From a virus: DNA of 23,617 bases. The position numbers were made by a program, and so were the translations under genes. This document shows positions 12,845 to 23,348 of this stretch, piece after piece; the stretch's first letter is position 1, and the number at the start of each line of letters is the position of its first letter. The notes beneath the pieces are model-generated. The model ran no database searches. It had not been told where the DNA came from and saw only the letters and a program-made list of their open reading frames with translations. The stretch covers positions 1-23,617 of the IMG/VR virus record IMGVR_UViG_3300042691_024805, one strand, 5' to 3'.

Positions 12845-13714
12845 ATTAAACATAATTACCTAAACAACAAAGATATTTTAAAAGAAATACACAAAAGCAA
12901 AAATTCTTATTGCTGCTACGCAGATCCCGATGCCGCAGATTACGATATAATTTTAGATAATGTATCAAAAATTAATAAGAAAAATATATTAGAGGGTAGA
13001 AAGTTTCGCGCAGAAAGATTAAGCAAATTGGCCTACGAAAAAGCCAATGAAACTTCAACAGAAAAATTAAAACAAGATCAATTTGAAATAAAGTATACCA
13101 AAATACCTGCGAATGAAGTTGTGTTTCGTGTTATGACTTGGGATCATATACCAGTTGATGATAGTAAAAAGAAAAAAGAACAAATTAAAAATGTAAATCT
13201 TTTTGATATCGAGGAAGACCTACATACCGAATACGATGACACAGATACCAAGCCTACCAAATTTGTTAAAGTTAATTTTCCCCCGTTCTATCACTACAGG
13301 ATAGATCAAGATAACGTTCCCTATATTGTAGGAAAAAGTCATTGGAAAGGTACTTTAGAAAACGGATCTTTCAGTAAAGACCATGGCAGTATGACTCCAA
13401 AGTTAGCTCATATGTTCATAAAATTATGTGAACGATATGCTACACGTAGTAATTGGAGAGGTTATACTTATAATGACGAAATGCGTAGTCAAGCACTATT
13501 ACAACTAAGTCAAATTGGATTACAGTTTGATGAAAGTAAAAGTCAAAATCCATTTGCTTATTATACTGCTGCTATCACTAATAGTTTTACTAGAGTACTC
13601 AACATCGAGAAACGTAATCAAAATTTACGCGATGATATACTTGAAATGAACAATCTCAACCCAAGTTATACAAGACAAAACTGGCAATCAGGCACTAGCA
13701 CGTATGACGAATAA
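12845..13714 (+). CDS. 55: Late transcription sigma factor gp55 (ATT start)
   Basis: T4-type sigma factor that directs host RNA polymerase to late promoters of the TATAAATA kind, working with the sliding clamp and gp33 in T4. Length from the ATT start is 289 residues, against 185 in T4. The conserved core lies in the C-terminal third: KLAHMFIKLCERYATRSNW, GYTYNDEMRSQALLQLSQIG and LQFDESKSQNPFAYYTAAIT correspond to the sigma region-2-like part of T4 gp55 (for example FNFSGYTQSWKQEMIADGI). Between the N-terminal HNYLNNKD motif and this core is a long insert, including FPPFYHYRIDQD and SHWKG, that I recall as shared by marine T4-like gp55 proteins. A shorter form from TTG at 13028 would lack the conserved N-terminus and has no ribosome-binding site, so the upstream start is preferred. 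A sequencing error (ATG read as ATT) cannot be excluded. Confidence 0.85.
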   Translation: MKHNYLNNKDILKEIHKSKNSYCCYADPDAADYDIILDNVSKINKKNILEGRKFRAERLSKLAYEKANETSTEKLKQDQFEIKYTKIPANEVVFRVMTWDHIPVDDSKKKKEQIKNVNLFDIEEDLHTEYDDTDTKPTKFVKVNFPPFYHYRIDQDNVPYIVGKSHWKGTLENGSFSKDHGSMTPKLAHMFIKLCERYATRSNWRGYTYNDEMRSQALLQLSQIGLQFDESKSQNPFAYYTAAITNSFTRVLNIEKRNQNLRDDILEMNNLNPSYTRQNWQSGTSTYDE

Positions 13715-13731: not shown

Positions 13732-14748
13732 ATGAGTAATCTATTTAAAAAAGCGGCTTTATTTACTGATATACATTTTGGGCTGAAATCAAACAGTCAA
13801 CTTCACAATGAAGATTGTTTGAACTTTGTAAAATGGGCCACTGACAAAGCCAAACAGGAAGGATGCGAAACTGCATTCTTCCTGGGCGATTGGCATAACA
13901 ATCGTGCCAGTCTGAATATAGTCACTTTGAATTATAGCCTACGGGCATTGGAGCACCTTAATGCAAACTTTGATCGACTTTTCTTTATTCCTGGCAACCA
14001 TGATTTGTATTATCGGGATAAACGTGATATTCAAAGCGTGGAATGGGCCCGTCACCTCCCCAATGTCCAAATCGTTAACGATTGGTTTAGCGATGGCGAT
14101 GTTATTATTGCTCCTTGGCTGGTGGGGGATGATCACAAACGTATTCCTAAATTAAAAGGCCGATACATGTTTGGACATTTTGAACTGCCACATTTTTACA
14201 TGAATGCTATGGTACAAATGCCCGATCATGGTGAACTAAAAAGAGAAACGTTCGATCATTTCGATCATGTTTTTACAGGACATTTTCACAAACGGCAATC
14301 ATATAAAAACATAACGTATATAGGAAATTGTTTTCCTCACAATTATGCGGATGCTGCCGATGATGAGCGCGGACTATGTATTTTAGAATGGGGACAAAAT
14401 CCTGTATATCATGCATGGCCAGATCAACCTACTTACAGAGTATTAGGGTTAGGCGCTATTTTAAATCATGCAGACACTATACTGAAACCAAATATGCATG
14501 TACGAGTAAATATTGATATAGACATTAGTTACGAAGAAGCCAATTTTATAAAAGAAACTTACATGGAGAGCCACAATCTACGCGAGATTACATTGATTCC
14601 TCAAAAAAATGTTGATCTAGTAGACTACGTGATTCAAGGAAATATTGCTTTTGAGAGCGTGGACCAAATAGTAACTAATCAAATTACTAACATAGACAGC
14701 AATCAATTTGACAACACACTATTATTGGACATTTATAGGAATCTATAA
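13732..14748 (+). CDS. 47: Recombination endonuclease subunit gp47 (SbcD/Mre11-like)
   Basis: 338 residues, the same size class as T4 gp47 (339). Metallophosphoesterase nuclease that pairs with gp46 to resect DNA ends for recombination-dependent replication and repair. Metal-site motifs are in the family order: D13-I-H15, G52-D-W-H-N56, G88-N-H-D91, then the GHFELPH segment and TGHFH. The C-terminal part (after about residue 220) is the capping domain that contacts gp46. The first half of the gene is GC-richer (about 43% over 13801-14160) than most of the window. Gene 47 is normally followed at once by gene 46; here three foreign-looking genes intervene. Confidence 0.95.
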   Translation: MSNLFKKAALFTDIHFGLKSNSQLHNEDCLNFVKWATDKAKQEGCETAFFLGDWHNNRASLNIVTLNYSLRALEHLNANFDRLFFIPGNHDLYYRDKRDIQSVEWARHLPNVQIVNDWFSDGDVIIAPWLVGDDHKRIPKLKGRYMFGHFELPHFYMNAMVQMPDHGELKRETFDHFDHVFTGHFHKRQSYKNITYIGNCFPHNYADAADDERGLCILEWGQNPVYHAWPDQPTYRVLGLGAILNHADTILKPNMHVRVNIDIDISYEEANFIKETYMESHNLREITLIPQKNVDLVDYVIQGNIAFESVDQIVTNQITNIDSNQFDNTLLLDIYRNL

Positions 14749-14765: not shown

Positions 14766-15620
14766 ATGATATCAATTGATTTTGTGCCGGGATCTCATGG
14801 CAATTTTTTAGAATATATTTGTAATAAATTTGTAGCCAATGTTCCCGCCGACTTTATGCCCTTTAATTCCTTAGGAGCATGTCACAACAAATCTCAAAAT
14901 TATCAACAATATAAAATTTTTATAGCAGATCATTATAGTTTAAATTCATTATCGTTATATCAAAAAATAATAAGAATCAATTTCGATTTCGAAGATTTAC
15001 TAGCAGTGTCGTCCTTATGTTTTTTAAGAGCAGGTGATTCAAATATAGATATAGACACCTTAGAATTCGATACTTACAACAAATTAATGCAAAGTAAATA
15101 TTTTTCATCTTTGATTGATCGGATTAATGTTGCATATCCAGAACATAAAATTTCAGAAGAAACCACAAACTGTCCTAGATATGTATTAAGAGAATTTTTT
15201 AAATTTGGCTTCAAGCATCCAGAATTACATGGATTAATTCAATATCAAAATTTGTTAAAATATCCCGACAACTATAATGTGTTTGACTTTAATTTTAAAG
15301 ATTTTTATAACTACAAGATTTTCTGTGACAGAATTCATACACTATCGATTTGGTACGGTAATACAGATATAAATCTAAATTTAAAAACAATTTGGAATGA
15401 ATTTATAAAAAGACAAATTTATAAAAACAATAAAAATGAATGCGATTTTATAATAGACAGTGTTATAAATTTACAGAATGTACAGATTAAAAAATTGACA
15501 CTACTGCAAGAAAGTTATATAAACGGTAAATTAGAAAAAACATTTAATTTAGAAATGCCATTTGTTCAACCTAATTATTTTACAGATACAAAAGATATCA
15601 TTGAATATCTATGCTTATAA
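14766..15620 (+). CDS. Unknown protein with a GSHGNF motif at the N-terminus
   Basis: 284 residues; I do not recognise a named family. The protein opens with a hydrophobic strand and a glycine turn, ISIDFVPGSHGNFLEY (residues 2-16), which resembles the nucleotide- or sulfonucleotide-binding loop of sulfotransferase-like and other P-loop proteins. It then has FIADHYSL around residue 52. The rest is rich in Phe, Tyr, Asn, Lys and Ile, with no transmembrane segment or Cys cluster. Base composition is extreme: the stretch 15361-15480 has only 21 G or C in 120 bases. It is first in the insert between genes 47 and 46, next to an SDR and a radical-SAM gene, so a part in the same modification pathway is a reasonable guess. 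A transferase role is possible but unproven. Confidence 0.75.
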   Translation: MISIDFVPGSHGNFLEYICNKFVANVPADFMPFNSLGACHNKSQNYQQYKIFIADHYSLNSLSLYQKIIRINFDFEDLLAVSSLCFLRAGDSNIDIDTLEFDTYNKLMQSKYFSSLIDRINVAYPEHKISEETTNCPRYVLREFFKFGFKHPELHGLIQYQNLLKYPDNYNVFDFNFKDFYNYKIFCDRIHTLSIWYGNTDINLNLKTIWNEFIKRQIYKNNKNECDFIIDSVINLQNVQIKKLTLLQESYINGKLEKTFNLEMPFVQPNYFTDTKDIIEYLCL

Positions 15621-15651
15621 TAGTTGTTTAAAACTTAATATCCATTAATTT

Positions 15652-16110
15652 ATGAAAATAGCAATATCAGGACATACAGCACGATTAGGCAAAAGTTTTT
15701 ATGATGCCTGTATTGCTAAGGGACACATTGTCGCAGGATTTAGCCGTTCTAACGGATATGATCTTAGAGACTATTCTTGTGTGACAAGAATGTTAGAAGA
15801 AATAAAAGGATTTGACGTTTTTATAAATAATGCCAAACCTGACTATTCTCAAACACAAATATTGTACAGAATAGTGAGAAGTTGGAACCATGGCATCATT
15901 GTTAACATAGGTAGTTCAGTCATAGACAAAATGCCAAACTGGAGTGATACTTTTTTATTAGAGTATGTAACACAAAAATACGCATTAGCTCATGCAGTGA
16001 ATGTGCTTTCTCCTGTAACATCATGTAATTTAATTTTACTAAATCCTTCTCATCTAGGCGACAATACTCAAGATTATGTACAGGAACAATTAAAAATATT
16101 AGGATTATGA
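15652..16110 (+). CDS. Minimal short-chain dehydrogenase/reductase-like protein
   Basis: 152 residues with the order of motifs of classical SDR enzymes: dinucleotide-binding turn G7-H-T-A-R-L-G13, N59-N-A61 after the fourth strand, an NIGSS strand end with a candidate catalytic Ser at 88-89, and Y105-V-T-Q-K109 as the YxxxK catalytic pair. Family members are usually about 250 residues. This one lacks the C-terminal substrate-binding region, so it is either a minimal enzyme, half of a heteromer, or one that borrows its substrate pocket from a partner. Its stop overlaps the start of the next radical-SAM gene (ATGA, 16107-16110), which indicates translational coupling and probably joint function. 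No Shine-Dalgarno sequence before its own ATG. Confidence 0.8.
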   Translation: MKIAISGHTARLGKSFYDACIAKGHIVAGFSRSNGYDLRDYSCVTRMLEEIKGFDVFINNAKPDYSQTQILYRIVRSWNHGIIVNIGSSVIDKMPNWSDTFLLEYVTQKYALAHAVNVLSPVTSCNLILLNPSHLGDNTQDYVQEQLKILGL

Positions 16111-17264
16111 ATCTTAAAGAATTCGTATTACACGAAACTGTGTGCCCAGTTCCATGGTCAGGTATGTATTTAGACCCGGCCGGCAATGTAAGAAATTGTT
16201 CTGTCAGTCAAAAAACTCTGGGCAATATTAATGATAAAGACTCCATTATTGATATTTTAAACTCACAGAAGAATGTAGAAATAAAAAAGGATCTATTAAA
16301 CAAAGTAAAAAATCCTTCTTGTAATTATTGCTGGGTTACTGAATCAATGAATACTTCTGTGTTAAGCACTAGTAACCGTTCGCATTTTAAAAAAACGATC
16401 GGTAAAATTATTCCACTTACAGTGTTCGATTCGGCCAATAATTTTGACCTTAAGCAAGTAGATTTGAGATGGCGTAATACTTGTAATTTAGCGTGTGTTT
16501 ATTGTGATAGTAGCCTGAGCAGCACGTGGGCTAAAGAATTAAATGTAGAAGTATCCACAAACGAAGCCGAAATAGAACGTACTAAACAATATATATTTGA
16601 AAAAATTGCTAGTCTGCGCTACATTTATCTATGTGGGGGTGAACCTCTATTGATGAAGGAAAATGCAGATCTCATAAAACTAGTACAAGAAAAAAACCCC
16701 GATATTTACATTAGAGTTAATACAAATTTAACAAACATTAATTCACCGATCTATAAATTGTTGCTTAACTGTAAAAATGTACACTGGATTATTAGTGTAG
16801 ACAGTATTAAAGAAAACTTTGAATACATAAGGTACGGTGCAAAATGGGATAATTGGTTTGCTAATCTAATTCAATTAAAAAACGAAGTTCAACCCAACGG
16901 ACATAAAATTACATTTAATATGGTTTGGTGCTCATTGACTTCGTTGGCTATATTTGAAGCCGTGGATCTATTTCTGTCTTTAGGATTTAGTCCAAACTCT
17001 TTTATAATTCAATTATTAGATACACCGGAATATTTAAGAGTACATTATATTAATCAAAAATCCAAAGATCTAATCAAGACCATGTTGGATTCTAGAATTC
17101 CAAACACTGCCGACAGCTGGTTAAAAACTGGATATAAACTAATGCAGACAGAATTAGATAATAATTATGATATCAACAATAATAGTTCATTATTGAATTT
17201 TATTCACGAGTTAGATAATAGACGCAATTTAAACGGCAAATCGTTATTTGCTAACTTGTTATGA
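16107..17264 (+). CDS. Radical SAM protein with N-terminal SPASM/twitch-like Cys region
   Basis: 385 residues. The radical-SAM cluster motif is C126-x3-C130-x2-C133, followed by the GGEPLL segment (CGGEPLLMKEN) that contacts S-adenosylmethionine. Ahead of the core is a separate Cys region, C13 (in VCPVPW), C31 (in GNVRNC), C72 and C75 (NPSCNYC). This has the layout of an auxiliary iron-sulfur site placed at the N-terminus, as in radical-SAM proteins of the twitch/SPASM type common in marine phages. Such enzymes use a 5'-deoxyadenosyl radical to modify peptides, sugars or other metabolites; the substrate here is unknown. It is coupled to the mini-SDR by a four-base overlap and is the last gene of the insert before gene 46. 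Confidence 0.88.
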   Translation: MNLKEFVLHETVCPVPWSGMYLDPAGNVRNCSVSQKTLGNINDKDSIIDILNSQKNVEIKKDLLNKVKNPSCNYCWVTESMNTSVLSTSNRSHFKKTIGKIIPLTVFDSANNFDLKQVDLRWRNTCNLACVYCDSSLSSTWAKELNVEVSTNEAEIERTKQYIFEKIASLRYIYLCGGEPLLMKENADLIKLVQEKNPDIYIRVNTNLTNINSPIYKLLLNCKNVHWIISVDSIKENFEYIRYGAKWDNWFANLIQLKNEVQPNGHKITFNMVWCSLTSLAIFEAVDLFLSLGFSPNSFIIQLLDTPEYLRVHYINQKSKDLIKTMLDSRIPNTADSWLKTGYKLMQTELDNNYDINNNSSLLNFIHELDNRRNLNGKSLFANLL

Positions 17265-17276
17265 TTAGTGTAAAAT
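17248..17276 (+). promoter_or_regulatory. Possible sigma70 promoter for gene 46
   Basis: TTGCTA (17248-17253), 17 bases, TAAAAT (17271-17276): four of six and five of six consensus matches with ideal spacing. Initiation near 17283 would leave only a few bases before the ATG at 17286. No Shine-Dalgarno sequence is visible. This would let gene 46 be expressed independently of the inserted genes. Confidence 0.4.
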
Positions 17277-17283
17277 TATAAAG
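17273..17283 (+). repeat. 11-bp direct repeat, right copy
   Basis: AAATTATAAAG, identical to 14747-14757. Removing the DNA between the copies would leave gene 47 followed 11 bases later by gene 46, the usual close arrangement. Confidence 0.5.
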
Positions 17284-17285
17284 AT

Positions 17286-19058
17286 ATGTTCAAAATAAAA
17301 TCATTGTCAGTTAAAAATTTTATGAGTGTGGGCAATAGCACTCAGGGAATCGATTTTGATCGAAAGGATCTAACACTAGTTTTAGGTGAGAACTTAGACC
17401 TAGGAGGTGACGATAGTGGTGCCCGCAATGGTACTGGTAAGACTACAATTATTAATGCCTTGAGTTATGCTTTGTTTGGTCAAGCATTAACTAATATAAA
17501 AAAAGATAATTTGATTAATAAAACTAATAGTAAACATATGTTAGTTACCATTAACTTTGAATTAGACAATCAAAGTTATAGAATTGAACGTGGCCGTAAA
17601 CCTAATGTTTTAAAATTTTACATTGGGGATGTAGAACAAGAAAGCAAAGATGACAACAGTCAGGGTGACAGTAGAGAAACTCAACATGAAATTGAACGTA
17701 TGTTGGGTATGAGCCATGACATGTTTAAGCATATAGTAGCCCTAAACACCTATACTGAACCTTTTTTAAGTTTGAAAGCAAATGATCAACGCACTATTAT
17801 AGAACAATTGTTGGGTATTACTTTGCTGTCAGAAAAAGCAGAAAGTCTTAAAGAACAGAACAAAGCAACTAAAGACGCCATTCAGTCTGAAGAATTTAGA
17901 ATTAAAGCAGTGAGTGATGCTAACAAACGGATACAAGATCAAATTGATGCATTGATTCGCCGCCAAACTTTGTGGCAAAAGAAAAAAACTGAAGATTTAG
18001 AAGTTCTACAAACTGCATATGATCAATTAGCTAAACTAGACATAGAAACAGAATTGTCTGCACATAAGGATTTATTAAGACATCAAACCAAATCTATACA
18101 AATTGATGACTTAGCGAAATCCGTCAAACTGCTTAATAAAGAAATTGAAAAAGAAACAAAAAATCGAATTCGACTGCAGGATGAAGTAGTAAGCCTCGAA
18201 AATCATATTTGTCCTAGTTGCAGTCAGAAATTTCACAGTGATGAACATGCTCGAGCATTATCAAATAAAAAACAACTACTTTCTGATTCTATATCTTGTA
18301 TAACAGAACTAGAGGCTAATTTAGTAGATATAGAATTGCAAAAACAATCTCTGGGCCCGCTCGGTATTGCACCAAAAACTTTTTATGATCTTGAGTCAGA
18401 CGCTTTCGAACACAGAAGTAGTATGGCAAATCTCTTAACTCAAATTACTGCTAAACAAGAAGAAGCAGATCCATACACCGAGCAAATTAGAGATATGCAA
18501 GAAACTGCAGTACAAGAAATCAGTTATGATACTATTAATACATTAACTAATATTAAAGAACATCAAGAATTTTTGTTGAAATTGTTGACTAACAAAGACA
18601 GTTTTATACGTAAAAAAATAATTGATCAAAACTTAAATTATCTAAATGCCAGACTAGGGTACTATTTAGATAAAATTGGATTGCCACATACGGTAAGATT
18701 TCAAAATGACTTAACTGTAAGTATTGAAGAATTAGGCAGAGAATTAGATTTCGATAATTTAAGTCGTGGAGAACGTAACAGATTAATCCTAAGCTTAAGT
18801 TGGGCATTCAGGGATGTATGGGAGAGTTTATATCAATCTATTAATTTATTGTTTATTGACGAACTGGTAGATAGTGGTATGGACAGTTCAGGCGTAGAAA
18901 ACAGCCTTGCAATTTTGAAAAAAATGAGCAGGGAGGGTAATCGCAGTGTTTGGCTGGTCAGTCATAAAGATGAACTTGCAGGTAGAGTTAATAATATTCT
19001 AACTGTCATAAAAGAAAATGGATTTACTAGTTACAATACAGATTTGGAAATTCATTAA
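17286..19058 (+). CDS. 46: Recombination endonuclease subunit gp46 (SbcC/Rad50-like ATPase)
   Basis: 590 residues, near T4 gp46 (560). ABC-type ATPase of the gp46/gp47 end-resection complex. Walker A lies at residues 45-53 (GARNGTGKT). A long coiled coil begins around residue 190, is broken by the zinc-hook C-P-S-C near residue 308, and returns to the C-terminal ATPase half. That half has the ABC signature LSRGERNRLILSLSW and Walker B NLLFIDELVDSG, with the downstream VSHKDEL switch His. It is separated from its partner gene 47 by three accessory genes but both are intact. The stop is followed after one base by the ATG of the next radical-SAM gene. Confidence 0.95.
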   Translation: MFKIKSLSVKNFMSVGNSTQGIDFDRKDLTLVLGENLDLGGDDSGARNGTGKTTIINALSYALFGQALTNIKKDNLINKTNSKHMLVTINFELDNQSYRIERGRKPNVLKFYIGDVEQESKDDNSQGDSRETQHEIERMLGMSHDMFKHIVALNTYTEPFLSLKANDQRTIIEQLLGITLLSEKAESLKEQNKATKDAIQSEEFRIKAVSDANKRIQDQIDALIRRQTLWQKKKTEDLEVLQTAYDQLAKLDIETELSAHKDLLRHQTKSIQIDDLAKSVKLLNKEIEKETKNRIRLQDEVVSLENHICPSCSQKFHSDEHARALSNKKQLLSDSISCITELEANLVDIELQKQSLGPLGIAPKTFYDLESDAFEHRSSMANLLTQITAKQEEADPYTEQIRDMQETAVQEISYDTINTLTNIKEHQEFLLKLLTNKDSFIRKKIIDQNLNYLNARLGYYLDKIGLPHTVRFQNDLTVSIEELGRELDFDNLSRGERNRLILSLSWAFRDVWESLYQSINLLFIDELVDSGMDSSGVENSLAILKKMSREGNRSVWLVSHKDELAGRVNNILTVIKENGFTSYNTDLEIH

Positions 19059-19059
19059 A

Positions 19060-20559
19060 ATGTTTGCAGTAATTTTGTCAGTTCCTAGAATAGCAGCAAT
19101 AAGACCGGCAGCAGCACCGAGTATTATAAAATCGCTTTTACAAAAAAGATCTTTAGACTCTAAGGTACTAGACATAAATTTAAATTTTCATGATGATTTT
19201 AGAAAATTTTACGGTGATAAATTATATTTCCGCCTAGATGATTATTTTTTTAATTATCAAATTACATTAACTGATAATGAACAGGCAATATACACTCAAT
19301 GGATGATAGATTGGATTCATAGAATAAAATTTTATAATCCTAAGTGGCTTATGATTAGTGTGTTTACTTGGCAAGCCCAACGCTTTACTAGAGACTTTTT
19401 AACTCTATGGAAACAATATACTGATATTCCAGTATTAATAGGTGGTCAAGGATTAATCAAACAGGAAAATGGTAGTTATTCTGATCGTCCAGATTTTGCA
19501 TATGAATTAAAAGAAAAAGATTTAATTGCACACTGGATTCGAGGTGAGGTAGAGTCAACTATAGATTCTATTATTTCTAATAGATTTGATGTATTAGGAA
19601 TTGACTCTGACAGTTTCTCTGAACGGAGCGATGTTAATACTCACGAATATATGAATTTCGACGATTTCGAAATTCGAAATTACTATAGTGGGTATGAAAA
19701 TGGTGTGCTACCGATGGAAACTAGCAGAGGATGCGTTCGTAATTGTGTATTTTGTGATATCCCCTCTATGCATGGCGGATATAGATACAAAACTGGAGAA
19801 AGATTGTTTAATGAACTAGTTTATTATTATGAACGTTACGGAGTAAAGGATTTTTTCTTTCATGATGCACTATGTAACGGCAGTGTTAAAGATTTTAGAA
19901 TTTTTAATCAAAAATTAATCGAATATTATAGAGCACACAATTTGCCAGATCGTTACTTTAAATACAGCAGTCATTTTATTATTCGAAGTGAACAAATTAT
20001 GAAAGAAAGAGATTATGAATTAATGAGTAAAGGTGGTGCTGAATGTATGGTTATAGGTGTCGAGTCCGGCAGTGATCGAGTACGAGAACATATGAAAAAA
20101 GGATTTAATAATCAGGATCTTGATTTTACAATGAAAATGTTTAGCAAATACAGTATGACTGCATATTTTTTAATTGTAATAGGATTTCCCACTGAAACCC
20201 GAGAAGACTTCGAGCAAACGTTAACTATGCTGCGTAAATATCAACCATATGTGGCTGATGGAACTATTATTGGAGTTAACTTAGGAACTACACTAACTAT
20301 AGAAGAAGGCACACCAATTTGGAATGATTATTCCAAATTGAATATTATCGGTATTAATGGTAACAGACCTCAAGGCCCAGACTGGCGATGTACCGACAAT
20401 CTGCAACTAACTTACAAAGAACGTATACAAAGAAGAATTGAAGCACAAGAAGTAGCAATGAAATTAGGATATACTTTTTGGAAAGGCGACGATCAACTTA
20501 AAGTATTAATGGACAATTATTCTAATAGGTTAAGTCGTTTCGCAGGAGTAATTCACTAA
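19060..20559 (+). CDS. Radical SAM protein with Rossmann-like (B12-binding-type) N-terminal domain
   Basis: 499 residues from the ATG at 19060. An ATG at 19018 overlaps gene 46 and would add 14 unrelated residues before the natural MFAVILSVPRIAA start. Residues 1-200 look like the Rossmann domain of B12-dependent radical-SAM enzymes (AAIRPAAAPSIIKSLLQKRS, MISVFTWQAQRF, IPVLIGGQG), but the cobalamin-ligand motif DxHxxG is not seen. The cluster motif is C225-x3-C229-x2-C232 after METSRG. Then come FFFHDALCNG, a GVESGSDRVREHMKKG segment and FLIVIGFPTETREDFEQT, all typical of this superfamily's TIM barrel. Possible roles include methylation, ring formation or sugar/lipid modification; none can be chosen. 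The next gene overlaps its stop by one base (TAATG). Confidence 0.88.
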   Translation: MFAVILSVPRIAAIRPAAAPSIIKSLLQKRSLDSKVLDINLNFHDDFRKFYGDKLYFRLDDYFFNYQITLTDNEQAIYTQWMIDWIHRIKFYNPKWLMISVFTWQAQRFTRDFLTLWKQYTDIPVLIGGQGLIKQENGSYSDRPDFAYELKEKDLIAHWIRGEVESTIDSIISNRFDVLGIDSDSFSERSDVNTHEYMNFDDFEIRNYYSGYENGVLPMETSRGCVRNCVFCDIPSMHGGYRYKTGERLFNELVYYYERYGVKDFFFHDALCNGSVKDFRIFNQKLIEYYRAHNLPDRYFKYSSHFIIRSEQIMKERDYELMSKGGAECMVIGVESGSDRVREHMKKGFNNQDLDFTMKMFSKYSMTAYFLIVIGFPTETREDFEQTLTMLRKYQPYVADGTIIGVNLGTTLTIEEGTPIWNDYSKLNIIGINGNRPQGPDWRCTDNLQLTYKERIQRRIEAQEVAMKLGYTFWKGDDQLKVLMDNYSNRLSRFAGVIH

Positions 20560-21104
20560 TGCATCTACTAATCGAATTTGAGATAGGAGGATTATTAGGT
20601 ACTCCGATGATTAAAATTCTAATAGATGATTATATCGTATTGTATGAAGGGCCTGCTTTAGAAATATTTGATCGTAAATTTGATATCGACTCTGGAGAAC
20701 ACGAACTTAAAATTGTTCATTTTGGAAAGACAGATAATGATCATCGATACCATCCAGATGGATCCATTGCTGTAGATAAGTACGTTATAATTAAATCCAT
20801 CATTATCGATCAAGTTAAACTGTTAGAGTCCGAACTACAAACTGGACAATTTTGGCCTGTGTACGGATTATCCTATGTATCAGACATGGTCGATGCAGGT
20901 AAAGAATTACCATCATTCATAAGTCCTAATTTATACTTAGGTCATAACGGCACTTGGAGGTATACTTTCTTTTATCCATTTGTAGACTGGATTATAGAAT
21001 ATAGGCGTCCTCAAAGACAAAATTTAGACAGTACAATTTTTAGAACTAGTCAATCAGTGCTTGATGAAGCAAAAGAATTTTTTAAAGATTTACCAGAATT
21101 CTAA
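20559..21104 (+). CDS. Unknown beta-rich protein between two radical SAM genes
   Basis: 181 residues, not recognised. The first 80 residues alternate short hydrophobic strands and polar turns (LLIEFEIGG, MIKILIDDYIVLYEG, FDIDSGEHELKIVHFGKTDNDH). This pattern recalls a small jelly-roll or carbohydrate-binding-type sandwich. The second half has an aromatic cluster (FWPVYGLSYVSDM, YLGHNGTWRYTFFYPFVDWI) and ends in a charged helix. No Cys cluster, signal peptide or membrane segment. A good AGGAG ribosome-binding site lies about ten bases before the ATG, inside the end of the radical-SAM gene. Translational linkage on the left and a two-base gap to the next radical-SAM gene place it in the same pathway, perhaps as a substrate-binding partner (inference). 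Confidence 0.78.
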   Translation: MHLLIEFEIGGLLGTPMIKILIDDYIVLYEGPALEIFDRKFDIDSGEHELKIVHFGKTDNDHRYHPDGSIAVDKYVIIKSIIIDQVKLLESELQTGQFWPVYGLSYVSDMVDAGKELPSFISPNLYLGHNGTWRYTFFYPFVDWIIEYRRPQRQNLDSTIFRTSQSVLDEAKEFFKDLPEF

Positions 21105-21106
21105 AT

Positions 21107-22237
21107 ATGTTTAATTATAATTTGATATCGGAATATCAACTTAGTATTACTAATTATTGTAATGCTGCTTGTCCCCAATGTCCACGAAACATTTGTGGGG
21201 GCGCCATCAATCCGTTTTTACCACTACGGCATTTAGAAAGAAAAGTTATAGATAAAACCTTTACACCTGAATTAGTTAATCGTTTAAGTCAAATATTTTT
21301 TTGCGGCGGATTCGGCGATCCTACTATGCATCCACACTTTTTAGATATACTCAGAGATTTTAGGCATAAAAGTCCTACAGTATGGTTGTATATCCATACT
21401 AACGGCGGAGCACACGATAAAGAATGGTGGGCAGAATTATCTAACCTAATAGGACCTTACGGTAAGATTGACTTTGGAATTGATGGTCTTGAAGATACCA
21501 ATCACATTTATCGTAGACATATTAACTGGTCTCAATTAATGAGTAATGTATCTAGTTTTATTGATAATGGTGGTAAAGCCCAGTGGAATTTTATAATATT
21601 TAAACATAACCAGCATCAAGTCCACGAGGCAAAAAAACTCAGTGAAAAAATGGGATTCCAAACTTTCCTGGCCAGGCGCACTGGTAGATTTTATAATGCA
21701 AATACCTCTTCTATTATCAATAAATGGCCAGTCCATGATCGTAATAATATGATAGAATATTATATTGAACCTAGTGAGTTGCCCGAAGCACAAAATGCCA
21801 GTTTAAATAGGATAGAGTGGATTAAAAGCCAGCCGGGTGGATGGAGAAAATATCATGACACTACTAAAATTAGATGCGACGCATTAATTGGTAAAAAGGT
21901 TTTAATTACATCCGACGGTTTAGTTTTGCCTTGTAATTTTTTTGAACATCATTTGTATGACGCAAGATATCATGATCCCACATATATTCCTGGATCTGAC
22001 AGTTTATCTAGAGATAATCAAGGCGATAATCAAATAAGAAAATTACTAGAATCTGTAGGGCATAATAACATTAATATAAACTTTAATAACTTAGAAACTA
22101 TATTTAAGAACAATTTTTGGAATATGATTGTTGACAGTTGGAACAAAACTCTAGCAGAAGGCAGAATTTACGAATGTGCTAATACTTGCGGAGAAACATT
22201 TACTAAGGTATGGGATCAAGGAGGATCTATTAGATGA
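21107..22237 (+). CDS. Radical SAM/SPASM-type protein
   Basis: 376 residues. The cluster motif sits at the very start, C18-x3-C22-x2-C25 (NYCNAACPQC), followed by an FCGGFGDPTMHP strand-turn that binds S-adenosylmethionine and a YIHTNGG segment. The C-terminal part has a SPASM-like set of cysteines: C257 in the RCDAL segment, C276 in LVLPCNFFEH after a TSDG turn, and C357/C361 near the end (CANTC). These would hold an auxiliary cluster. SPASM enzymes modify ribosomal peptides, proteins or sugars; the substrate here is unknown. No ribosome-binding site is visible, so translation may depend on the gene before it. Its stop overlaps the following SDR gene by four bases (ATGA). Confidence 0.88.
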   Translation: MFNYNLISEYQLSITNYCNAACPQCPRNICGGAINPFLPLRHLERKVIDKTFTPELVNRLSQIFFCGGFGDPTMHPHFLDILRDFRHKSPTVWLYIHTNGGAHDKEWWAELSNLIGPYGKIDFGIDGLEDTNHIYRRHINWSQLMSNVSSFIDNGGKAQWNFIIFKHNQHQVHEAKKLSEKMGFQTFLARRTGRFYNANTSSIINKWPVHDRNNMIEYYIEPSELPEAQNASLNRIEWIKSQPGGWRKYHDTTKIRCDALIGKKVLITSDGLVLPCNFFEHHLYDARYHDPTYIPGSDSLSRDNQGDNQIRKLLESVGHNNININFNNLETIFKNNFWNMIVDSWNKTLAEGRIYECANTCGETFTKVWDQGGSIR

Positions 22238-22827
22238 CAATATTGATTACTGGTGGTAATAAGGGTTTAGGCGAATATATTTGTCAAACACTAGGTGCTA
22301 CAAGTCTAAGCAGAGAAAATGGCATGGATATAACTGATGAAAAATGTATTTTACAAATTGCTCAAGAAAGTTTAAAATATCGGGTGTTTATTAATAATGC
22401 ATTTGACGGGCCCCCACAAGAGTCTTGGGCTAATTTTGCACAAGTAAATCTTTATTTGGCAATTTACGACACATGGAAAGCCGCAGATAAAGATGGGTAT
22501 ATTTTTAATATTGGATCGATCGGAAGTCAAAATATTGTTTCCCCTGAACCAAGATTTGAAACTTATCGTATAAGCAAAGCAGCATTAGATCATGCTAGCC
22601 GTCAAGGTTCGATGGCTTTTAAACAAAATCAAGTAAAATTTAAAACAACTCTGATTATCCCCGATAGACTTGATACTCCTTTAGTAAGAAGCAGACCAAA
22701 TTGGACAGGAAATGGGATCAACTGCGGCGACATCGCAGAAACAATTAAATTTGTTTTGACATGTCAATCAAATACTTGTATAGAACAAATTGTATTATCA
22801 CTTAATTATCATTTTAAAGACAATTAA
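22234..22827 (+). CDS. Short-chain dehydrogenase/reductase (SDR)
   Basis: 197 residues with all core SDR motifs: cofactor turn G7-G-N-K-G-L-G13, N54-N-A56, the NIGSIGS strand end with catalytic Ser near 95-98, and Y111-R-I-S-K115. A SLSRENGMDITD segment follows the second strand, where NAD(H) or NADP(H) preference is set. Shorter than typical SDRs (about 250) but more complete than the 152-residue one at 15652. It has the strongest ribosome-binding site of this region (AAGGAGG at 22218-22224), lying inside the radical-SAM gene with which it shares an ATGA overlap. Probably a redox step paired with that enzyme. Confidence 0.88.
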   Translation: MTILITGGNKGLGEYICQTLGATSLSRENGMDITDEKCILQIAQESLKYRVFINNAFDGPPQESWANFAQVNLYLAIYDTWKAADKDGYIFNIGSIGSQNIVSPEPRFETYRISKAALDHASRQGSMAFKQNQVKFKTTLIIPDRLDTPLVRSRPNWTGNGINCGDIAETIKFVLTCQSNTCIEQIVLSLNYHFKDN

Positions 22828-22919: not shown

Positions 22920-23348
22920 ATGATTTGGTTATTCGAAGGCGCAGAGGTTGAGAATTTACCCGATCATTGTATAGGTTTTGTTTATCTAATCACTAATCTA
23001 ATATCAGGGCGCAAATACATAGGTAAAAAATTAGCAAAATTCTCAAAAACTCAAATCAAAACAGTAAAACTCAAAAACGGCACTAAAAAGAAAAAAAAGA
23101 TTAGATCAAAAATAGACAGCGATTGGCGTGATTATTATGGTAGTAATAGTGAACTACTCAAAGACGTAATGGCATTAGGGCACGAAAATTTTAAAAGAGA
23201 AATATTATTTTTTTGTAAATCTAAAGCAGAGTGTTCATATATTGAAGCAAGAGAACAATTTTCAAGGCGTGTACTAGAATCTACAGAATATTATAATGGT
23301 CACATACAAATCCGCATTCATGGCTCCCACATTTTAAACAAAATATAA
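22920..23348 (+). CDS. GIY-YIG endonuclease (SegE-like)
   Basis: 142 residues. The GIY-YIG nuclease core is visible: the GFVYLITN strand (VYL in place of GIY), RKYIGKK (YIG) about ten residues on, a Lys-rich loop (GTKKKKKIRSKI), DWRDYYGS, and the metal-binding Glu in YIEAREQF, with an Asn in the final YYNGHI segment. It resembles the small putative SegE-type endonucleases carried by many T4-like phages. T4 seg genes are free-standing homing endonucleases that cut related phage genomes and spread themselves with flanking DNA. No DNA-recognition domain is attached. No Shine-Dalgarno sequence. The nearness of cargo genes and a GC-rich, apparently untranslated tract suggests a possible role in mobility of this region (inference). 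Confidence 0.85.
   Translation: MIWLFEGAEVENLPDHCIGFVYLITNLISGRKYIGKKLAKFSKTQIKTVKLKNGTKKKKKIRSKIDSDWRDYYGSNSELLKDVMALGHENFKREILFFCKSKAECSYIEAREQFSRRVLESTEYYNGHIQIRIHGSHILNKI

Follow-up and report, generated by a model that had tools for sequence, protein, structure and literature searches.

Paired radical-SAM cassettes at the gp47-gp46-SegE hotspot of uncultured T4-like phages and their possible role in glycan modification

Introduction

Radical S-adenosylmethionine (rSAM) enzymes have been reported from several marine T4-like phages. Pelagimyophages carry rSAM cassettes in a hypervariable region adjacent to the tail fibres, together with glycosyltransferases of family 8 (GT8), and modification of the host O-chain has been proposed as their role (PMC7029224), while the T4-like environmental genome TARA_ERS488813_N000010 holds 12 rSAM genes, which were treated as part of iron-sulphur metabolism (PMC5332604). 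Here we analysed a linear IMG/VR fragment of 23,617 bases (record IMGVR_UViG_3300042691_024805; "the window" hereafter), which leaves the remainder of the phage genome outside view, and focused on three rSAM genes, E, G and I, that lie with their neighbours D, H and J around the recombination gene gp46. The source phage is an uncultured T4-like myovirus, probably of the jumbo type, and in profile scans of the window proteins the minus strand showed a block of T4-like baseplate genes.

The pelagimyophage cassettes resemble the present ones in combining rSAM cassettes with GT8 in T4-like aquatic phages, but the available portion of that report only mentions them, without the pairing, the I-J fusion, the gp46 hotspot or the fixed order of five rSAM genes described below (PMC7029224). 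TARA_ERS488813_N000010 is alike in holding many rSAM genes in a single T4-like genome, but its description, as far as available, gives neither cassette anatomy nor a sugar link (PMC5332604). In the open papers searched, neither the cassette pairing nor the I-J fusion nor the fixed five-rSAM operon was described. Published examples already exist of marine phages in which many rSAM genes adjoin glycosyltransferases, and the cassette anatomy and the I-J fusion appear to be new.

Results

Separable two-gene cassettes around gp46

The plus strand of the window carries, in order, a late sigma factor, gp47, C, D, E, gp46, G, H, I, J and a SegE-like GIY-YIG gene (Table 1). We compared this arrangement with about 150 IMG/VR loci retrieved via G or I, merging identical sequences before counting (the cases left are called distinct); since G or I served for retrieval, the fractions below describe pairing and not natural frequency. 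J came immediately after I in 86 of the 97 distinct cases, and the two were fused in ten more, the last case being a contig that ends within J. The fusion is one rSAM protein of 564-600 amino acids that continues into a short-chain dehydrogenase/reductase (SDR) (L004, L071, L128, L130, L133, L138, L143, L152, L283 and L284), and the fused or unfused state changes at least twice on the tree of I. The IMG/VR scan gave 73 loci with G, and H stood directly after G in 56/62 distinct cases; the G-H pair also recurs, at 34%/27% identity, in a contig of a Flavobacterium metagenome-assembled genome (MAG). Similarly, E was preceded by D in eight of ten distinct cases, and the remaining two lie at contig ends.

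The pairs are found independently of each other. The gene before I was H in 43 of the 97 distinct cases and gp46 itself in 21; D-E, known from about ten loci, stands beside gp32- and uvsX-like genes and without I-J in L081-L088; and in L062-L068 the genes after G-H are, in place of I-J, those of two other proteins and a further H-like one. C is nearly private to the window, its relatives (38-40% identity, between gp47 and gp46) being confined to L115 and L127, and a viral scan for relatives of C returned none. The initial annotation had read the seven genes of 14766-22827 as a full multi-step pathway. That proposal is rejected, because I-J occurs without G-H, D-E occurs without I-J and C is nearly private. 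Co-occurrence in other phages, which had been suggested as its test, was borne out only in that the genes are not scattered singly but found with relatives of one another; the seven do not travel together. The region is instead a set of separable and interchangeable two-gene cassettes, D-E, G-H and I-J, in a gp47-gp46-SegE hotspot.

The tight one-strand spacing noticed earlier is real, with intergenic gaps of at most 31 bases across 14766-22827. D and E overlap by 4 bases, I and J by 4 bases, and G and H by 1 base (TAATG), as expected for translationally coupled partners. The gp47 gene is syntenic with gp46 in relatives at 60-84% identity. By DNA, the nearest relatives of the window are L080 and L309, which match it in blocks at 65-79% identity; their records (G009, and G042, which also holds L225) both carry the five-rSAM operon described below.

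The gene content between gp47, gp46 and SegE is highly variable among relatives, and the border gene encodes a SegE-like endonuclease, as might be expected if the hotspot merely gathered horizontally moved metabolic genes as selfish or neutral cargo with no shared role. However, the strict pairings and the fusions, together with nine tested motif positions of I that are invariant in 25/25 sequences of only 40-60% overall identity, point to a selected function, and we regard cargo as very improbable.

The radical-SAM enzymes E, G and I

E, G and I each exceed the cut-off of the Pfam Radical_SAM model (PF04055), and the three CX3CX2C motifs by which the initial annotation had recognised them were confirmed at C126/C130/C133 of E, C225/C229/C232 of G and C18/C22/C25 of I. 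The positions in G are counted from 19060, the start supported by alignment, one base past the gp46 stop; the longest open reading frame begins at 19018, inside gp46.

Motif scans located a twitch-type cysteine set N-terminal to the radical core in E and a cysteine set C-terminal to it in I (Table 1). Both proteins fit the twitch/SPASM rSAM motif, CX9-15GX4C plus further cysteines (PMC6231123), and by this motif each is predicted to hold an auxiliary iron-sulphur cluster. E exceeds the cut-off (170 bits) of NF033640, "twitch domain-containing radical SAM protein", as do the five rSAM enzymes of the operon, whereas I scores 40.6 bits; the model name gives no function. A full SPASM domain has a seven-cysteine motif with two auxiliary clusters (PMC6231123). 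Since I offers four candidate auxiliary cysteines (257, 276, 357 and 361) and not seven, a full SPASM domain is rejected for I and its tail is twitch-type, which corrects the C-terminal SPASM-like reading suggested earlier.

Relatives of I are encoded in 401 viral stretches in the IMG/VR scan, and a PDB profile search with I gave no match at E 1e-3. Two characterised systems invite comparison. BtrN, from the butirosin pathway, is a twitch rSAM alcohol dehydrogenase that acts on a ring alcohol (PMC9012708) and shares with I the rSAM core and a C-terminal twitch cysteine set, but I has a near-obligate SDR partner and shows no sequence relation to BtrN at E 1e-3. AprD4, the rSAM diol dehydratase of apramycin biosynthesis, works with the NADPH-dependent reductase AprD3 (PMC5461906), and AprD4-AprD3 and I-J are both two-protein units of an rSAM enzyme and a reductase, the former acting on a sugar; the AprD4 model NF033070 did not match I and gave a score for G only, 14.7 bits, far under its cut-off of 500. 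By these searches I belongs to neither family.

For G, the alignment of 29 sequences contains 47 invariant columns. Its best NCBIfam matches are B12-rSAM families, every one below cut-off, and its N-terminal domain reached 14.5 bits against the B12-binding model PF02310 (cut-off 32.1). Among isolate phages, there was no match to G, H or C, and only remote rSAM matches to E and I. Clusters of E-, G- and I-like rSAM types were also observed on Bdellovibrionia MAG contigs of up to 0.9 Mb (L165, L166, L168, L171 and L324), and in L165 an I-like gene adjoins an SDR gene.

The partner proteins and C

Two of the partners, J and D, had been called SDR-type in the initial annotation. J passes the adh_short (PF00106) cut-off with 31.7 versus 26.6 bits, and its residues S95, Y111 and K115 are kept in 20/20 aligned J sequences. 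D gave no adh_short match and a weak RmlD match only, but it aligns with J and keeps the Gly, Asn, Ser, Tyr and Lys of the SDR fold, and from this alignment we classify it as SDR-like.

C and H, unrecognised at the outset, indeed have no family match by sequence in Pfam, NCBIfam or PHROGs. An AlphaFold model of H, built with 33 sequences, reached a mean predicted local distance difference test score (pLDDT) of 88, and its best Foldseek matches were 2xhh and 2xfd, calcium-dependent carbohydrate-binding modules (CBM) of the CBM60 type (probability 1.00; template-modelling (TM) score 0.66-0.70 on the target; E-values only 0.014-0.017). The predicted fold of H is thus a CBM60-like beta-sandwich. 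Recognition of H as CBM60 by sequence failed, PF16841 being without a hit at E 1 across 15 related phage records, although H is present in most of them. H-like proteins of CBM60 fold (146-177 amino acids) were further observed in jumbo contigs, adjoining rSAM enzymes of differing subfamilies or sitting between two proteins like pyridoxal phosphate (PLP) enzymes (L297, L298, L300, L303, L306 and L308).

C (14766-15620) has an N-terminal glycine-rich loop, GSHGNF, and like loops occur in hotspot proteins of L004, L039 and L310 (GGFGHF, GGSYGTY and GGFGNF); C and these proteins possibly form a family that binds nucleotides or 3'-phosphoadenosine-5'-phosphosulphate (PAPS).

A five-rSAM operon beside tail genes

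Related contigs hold between 1 and 13 rSAM genes each. A second cluster (L200, L201, L197, L198, L195, L189-L190; L202-L281) adjoins tail-like structural genes, as read in a 148-kb relative and five others. It encodes two glycosyltransferase-like proteins, a protein of ~120 amino acids, a 310-amino-acid protein that we call DGDN, five rSAM enzymes (rA-rE), a protein of ~400 amino acids and a carbamoyltransferase (PF02543/PF16861), in this order; in many copies a DegT-type aminotransferase (PF01041) and an epimerase (PF01370) follow, and some include an FkbM methyltransferase. The order of rA-rE is fixed. At least 588 IMG/VR stretches hold the operon; among the 80 stretches kept, counting within flanks that contig ends often clip, we found rE in 80, the ~400-amino-acid protein in 80, rC in 78, rB in 75, rD and the carbamoyltransferase in 74 each, DGDN in 71 and rA in 70. 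In isolate phages, rE had rSAM matches of 23% identity only, and its ~400-amino-acid partner had no match.

In the DGDN model, the commonest fold matches are GT-A glycosyltransferases, with sugar nucleotidyltransferases also represented, and the best PDB profile match of another operon member is, weakly, the GT8 enzyme glycogenin. One Bdellovibrionia MAG contig (L322:5894-9556) encodes a 1,220-amino-acid protein in which an N-terminal DGDN part is joined to a pair of family-2 glycosyltransferase domains (PF00535, E 1e-34), and a CTSSCSYC motif occurs in an internal stretch. Two readings from motifs judged by eye, PLP enzymes for clusters 21/22 and an amidinotransferase for a 346-amino-acid neighbour, were not confirmed by Pfam, and the SGNH readings likewise rest mostly on inspection by eye.

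We then compared the distribution of the operon with that of the cassettes. Eleven related contigs that reach 60 kb or more, all of them fragments, carry a cassette at the gp46 hotspot (I-J or G-H, and D-E in a single case); rE is present in eight of them and absent in three. Furthermore, in L077 I-J separates rA from rB of the operon, and in the Flavobacterium-MAG contig L160, which holds a version of the operon, G-H separates rB from rC; this ties both cassettes to the operon pathway. The conserved multi-rSAM pathway of these phages is the tail-adjacent operon, and the window cassettes look accessory to it.

Because rSAM enzymes act in some phage hypermodification pathways and the hotspot lies within a replication and recombination region, we also considered whether these enzymes act on a modified base of the phage DNA. 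PF00303 matches were present in 13/22 records, but the one thymidylate-synthase-family gene that was read, from a relative, resembles ordinary ThyA and adjoins a dihydrofolate reductase (DHFR) gene, and a search that was not exhaustive turned up neither a DNA kinase nor a base transferase. We thus give DNA hypermodification only a slim chance. ThyA and DHFR are adjacent just beyond the five-rSAM operon (L196:1479-2941), and a ThyA-family gene lies roughly 6-15 kb from rE in most long contigs possessing one.

Table 1. Genes of the hotspot and its borders in the window
Feature	Position	Strand	Evidence	Remark
Late sigma factor, gp55-like	13028..13714	+	phrog_12791, E 9e-64	Left flank of hotspot
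gp47-like recombination nuclease subunit	13732..14748	+	Weak SbcD match	Left border, first insertion site
C, unrecognised, 284 aa	14766..15620	+	No match in Pfam, NCBIfam, PHROGs	
D, short, SDR-like, 152 aa	15652..16110	+	Alignment with J	First half of cassette D-E
E, radical-SAM with N-terminal twitch (CX12GX4C, CX2C)	16107..17264	+	NF033640, 240.3 bits; motif scan	
gp46, SbcC-like recombination subunit	17286..19058	+	phrog_77, E 6e-99	Core phage gene between cassettes
G, B12-type radical-SAM, 499 aa	19060..20559	+	PF04055, E 1e-16	First half of cassette G-H
H, predicted CBM60-like beta-sandwich partner, 181 aa	20559..21104	+	AlphaFold model and Foldseek	
I, radical-SAM with C-terminal twitch (CX13GX4C, CX3C)	21107..22237	+	PF04055, 36.5 bits (cut-off 29.5)	
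J, short SDR, 197 aa	22234..22827	+	PF00106 above cut-off	4-base overlap with I
SegE-like GIY-YIG protein	22920..23348	+	PF19835, E 6e-32	Right border, second insertion site

The SegE-like protein also matches phrog_447, a family labelled "NAD synthetase" and probably mislabelled.

Discussion

We propose, with a probability of about 0.5, that the hotspot cassettes decorate a phage-directed glycan, which would be assembled mainly by the tail-adjacent operon and displayed either on the tail of the virion or on the surface of the infected cell. Direct observation covers the genes present, their pairing and fusion and their co-occurrence, and the fold of H comes from prediction; the sugar substrate, the reactions and the link to the tail operon are part of the proposal. 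In this proposal, the two-gene cassettes inserted into the sigma55-gp47-gp46-SegE hotspot would be tailoring units, each composed of an rSAM enzyme and a dedicated partner, and the five-rSAM/glycosyltransferase/carbamoyltransferase operon, which lies outside the window fragment, would serve as the assembly line. I would abstract hydrogen from a sugar carbon to give a keto or dehydrated intermediate, and J would reduce this intermediate with NAD(P)H, for a net epimerisation or deoxygenation; by analogy, I-J is likeliest a radical alcohol oxidase or dehydratase with an NAD(P)H reductase. H may dock G onto the sugar chain, a role we infer from its predicted fold and its pairing, so that G could alkylate or rearrange the chain.

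A sugar is favoured over a peptide because of the sugar enzymes of the operon, the glycosyltransferase-like DGDN, the glycogenin match, the H-like proteins near rSAM enzymes and the lack of room for a precursor. The initial annotation, seeing no obvious precursor peptide, had slightly favoured a sugar or small-molecule product, and a sugar-type product is indeed the better-supported class, the product itself being inferred. Alternatively, the rSAM enzymes could modify tail-fibre or virion proteins by twitch/SPASM peptide chemistry, introducing thioethers, carbon-carbon links, or epimerised or methylated residues. Such modification is common among twitch/SPASM rSAM enzymes (PMC6231123), and the five-rSAM operon directly adjoins tail-like structural genes; however, no gap in 14766-22827 has room for a short precursor gene, the operon neighbours are sugar enzymes, and SDR and CBM-like partners would be unusual for peptide maturases. 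We therefore consider protein modification unlikely.

The cassettes might also make a small molecule or cofactor, such as a nucleoside, lipid or amino-sugar, with which the phage would change the metabolism of its host or keep other phages out. The combination of rSAM, SDR and oxygenase genes is similar to natural-product sets, relatives have genes for TauD, aspartyl-hydroxylase and epimerase at this same hotspot, and similar clusters are present on Bdellovibrionia chromosomes. On the other hand, no transporter, carrier-protein or synthetase core genes were seen, and glycosyltransferase-like genes abound in the partner operon, near tail genes, so that this explanation, too, seems doubtful.

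Several observations weigh against glycan decoration itself. Every record is a metagenomic fragment, and I, which is compared with BtrN and AprD4 by analogy, has no PDB profile match at the threshold used. Orthologous I occurs in only 3/25 long rE contigs, which means that the five-rSAM operon does not depend on the cassettes. For DGDN, the Pfam family-2 glycosyltransferase matches are below cut-off only, and its fold matches have TM-scores of only about 0.3.

With glycan decoration as the preferred reading, a broader picture can be put forward tentatively, at less than even odds: many uncultured, often jumbo, T4-like phages may encode radical-based glycan biosynthesis, in which a conserved operon is joined by plug-in cassettes that diversify the sugar, and I-J may represent a new bifunctional oxidase/dehydratase-reductase, sometimes a single polypeptide, that acts on the assembled chain. 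If this is true, up to 13 rSAM genes per contig would be devoted to sugar chemistry unseen in the isolate phages searched. The I-J fusion and the tightly paired G-H provide small expressible units for testing, and they would give access to radical enzymology of carbohydrates that is new and to an explanation, open to testing, of the way these phages diversify virion or host surfaces.

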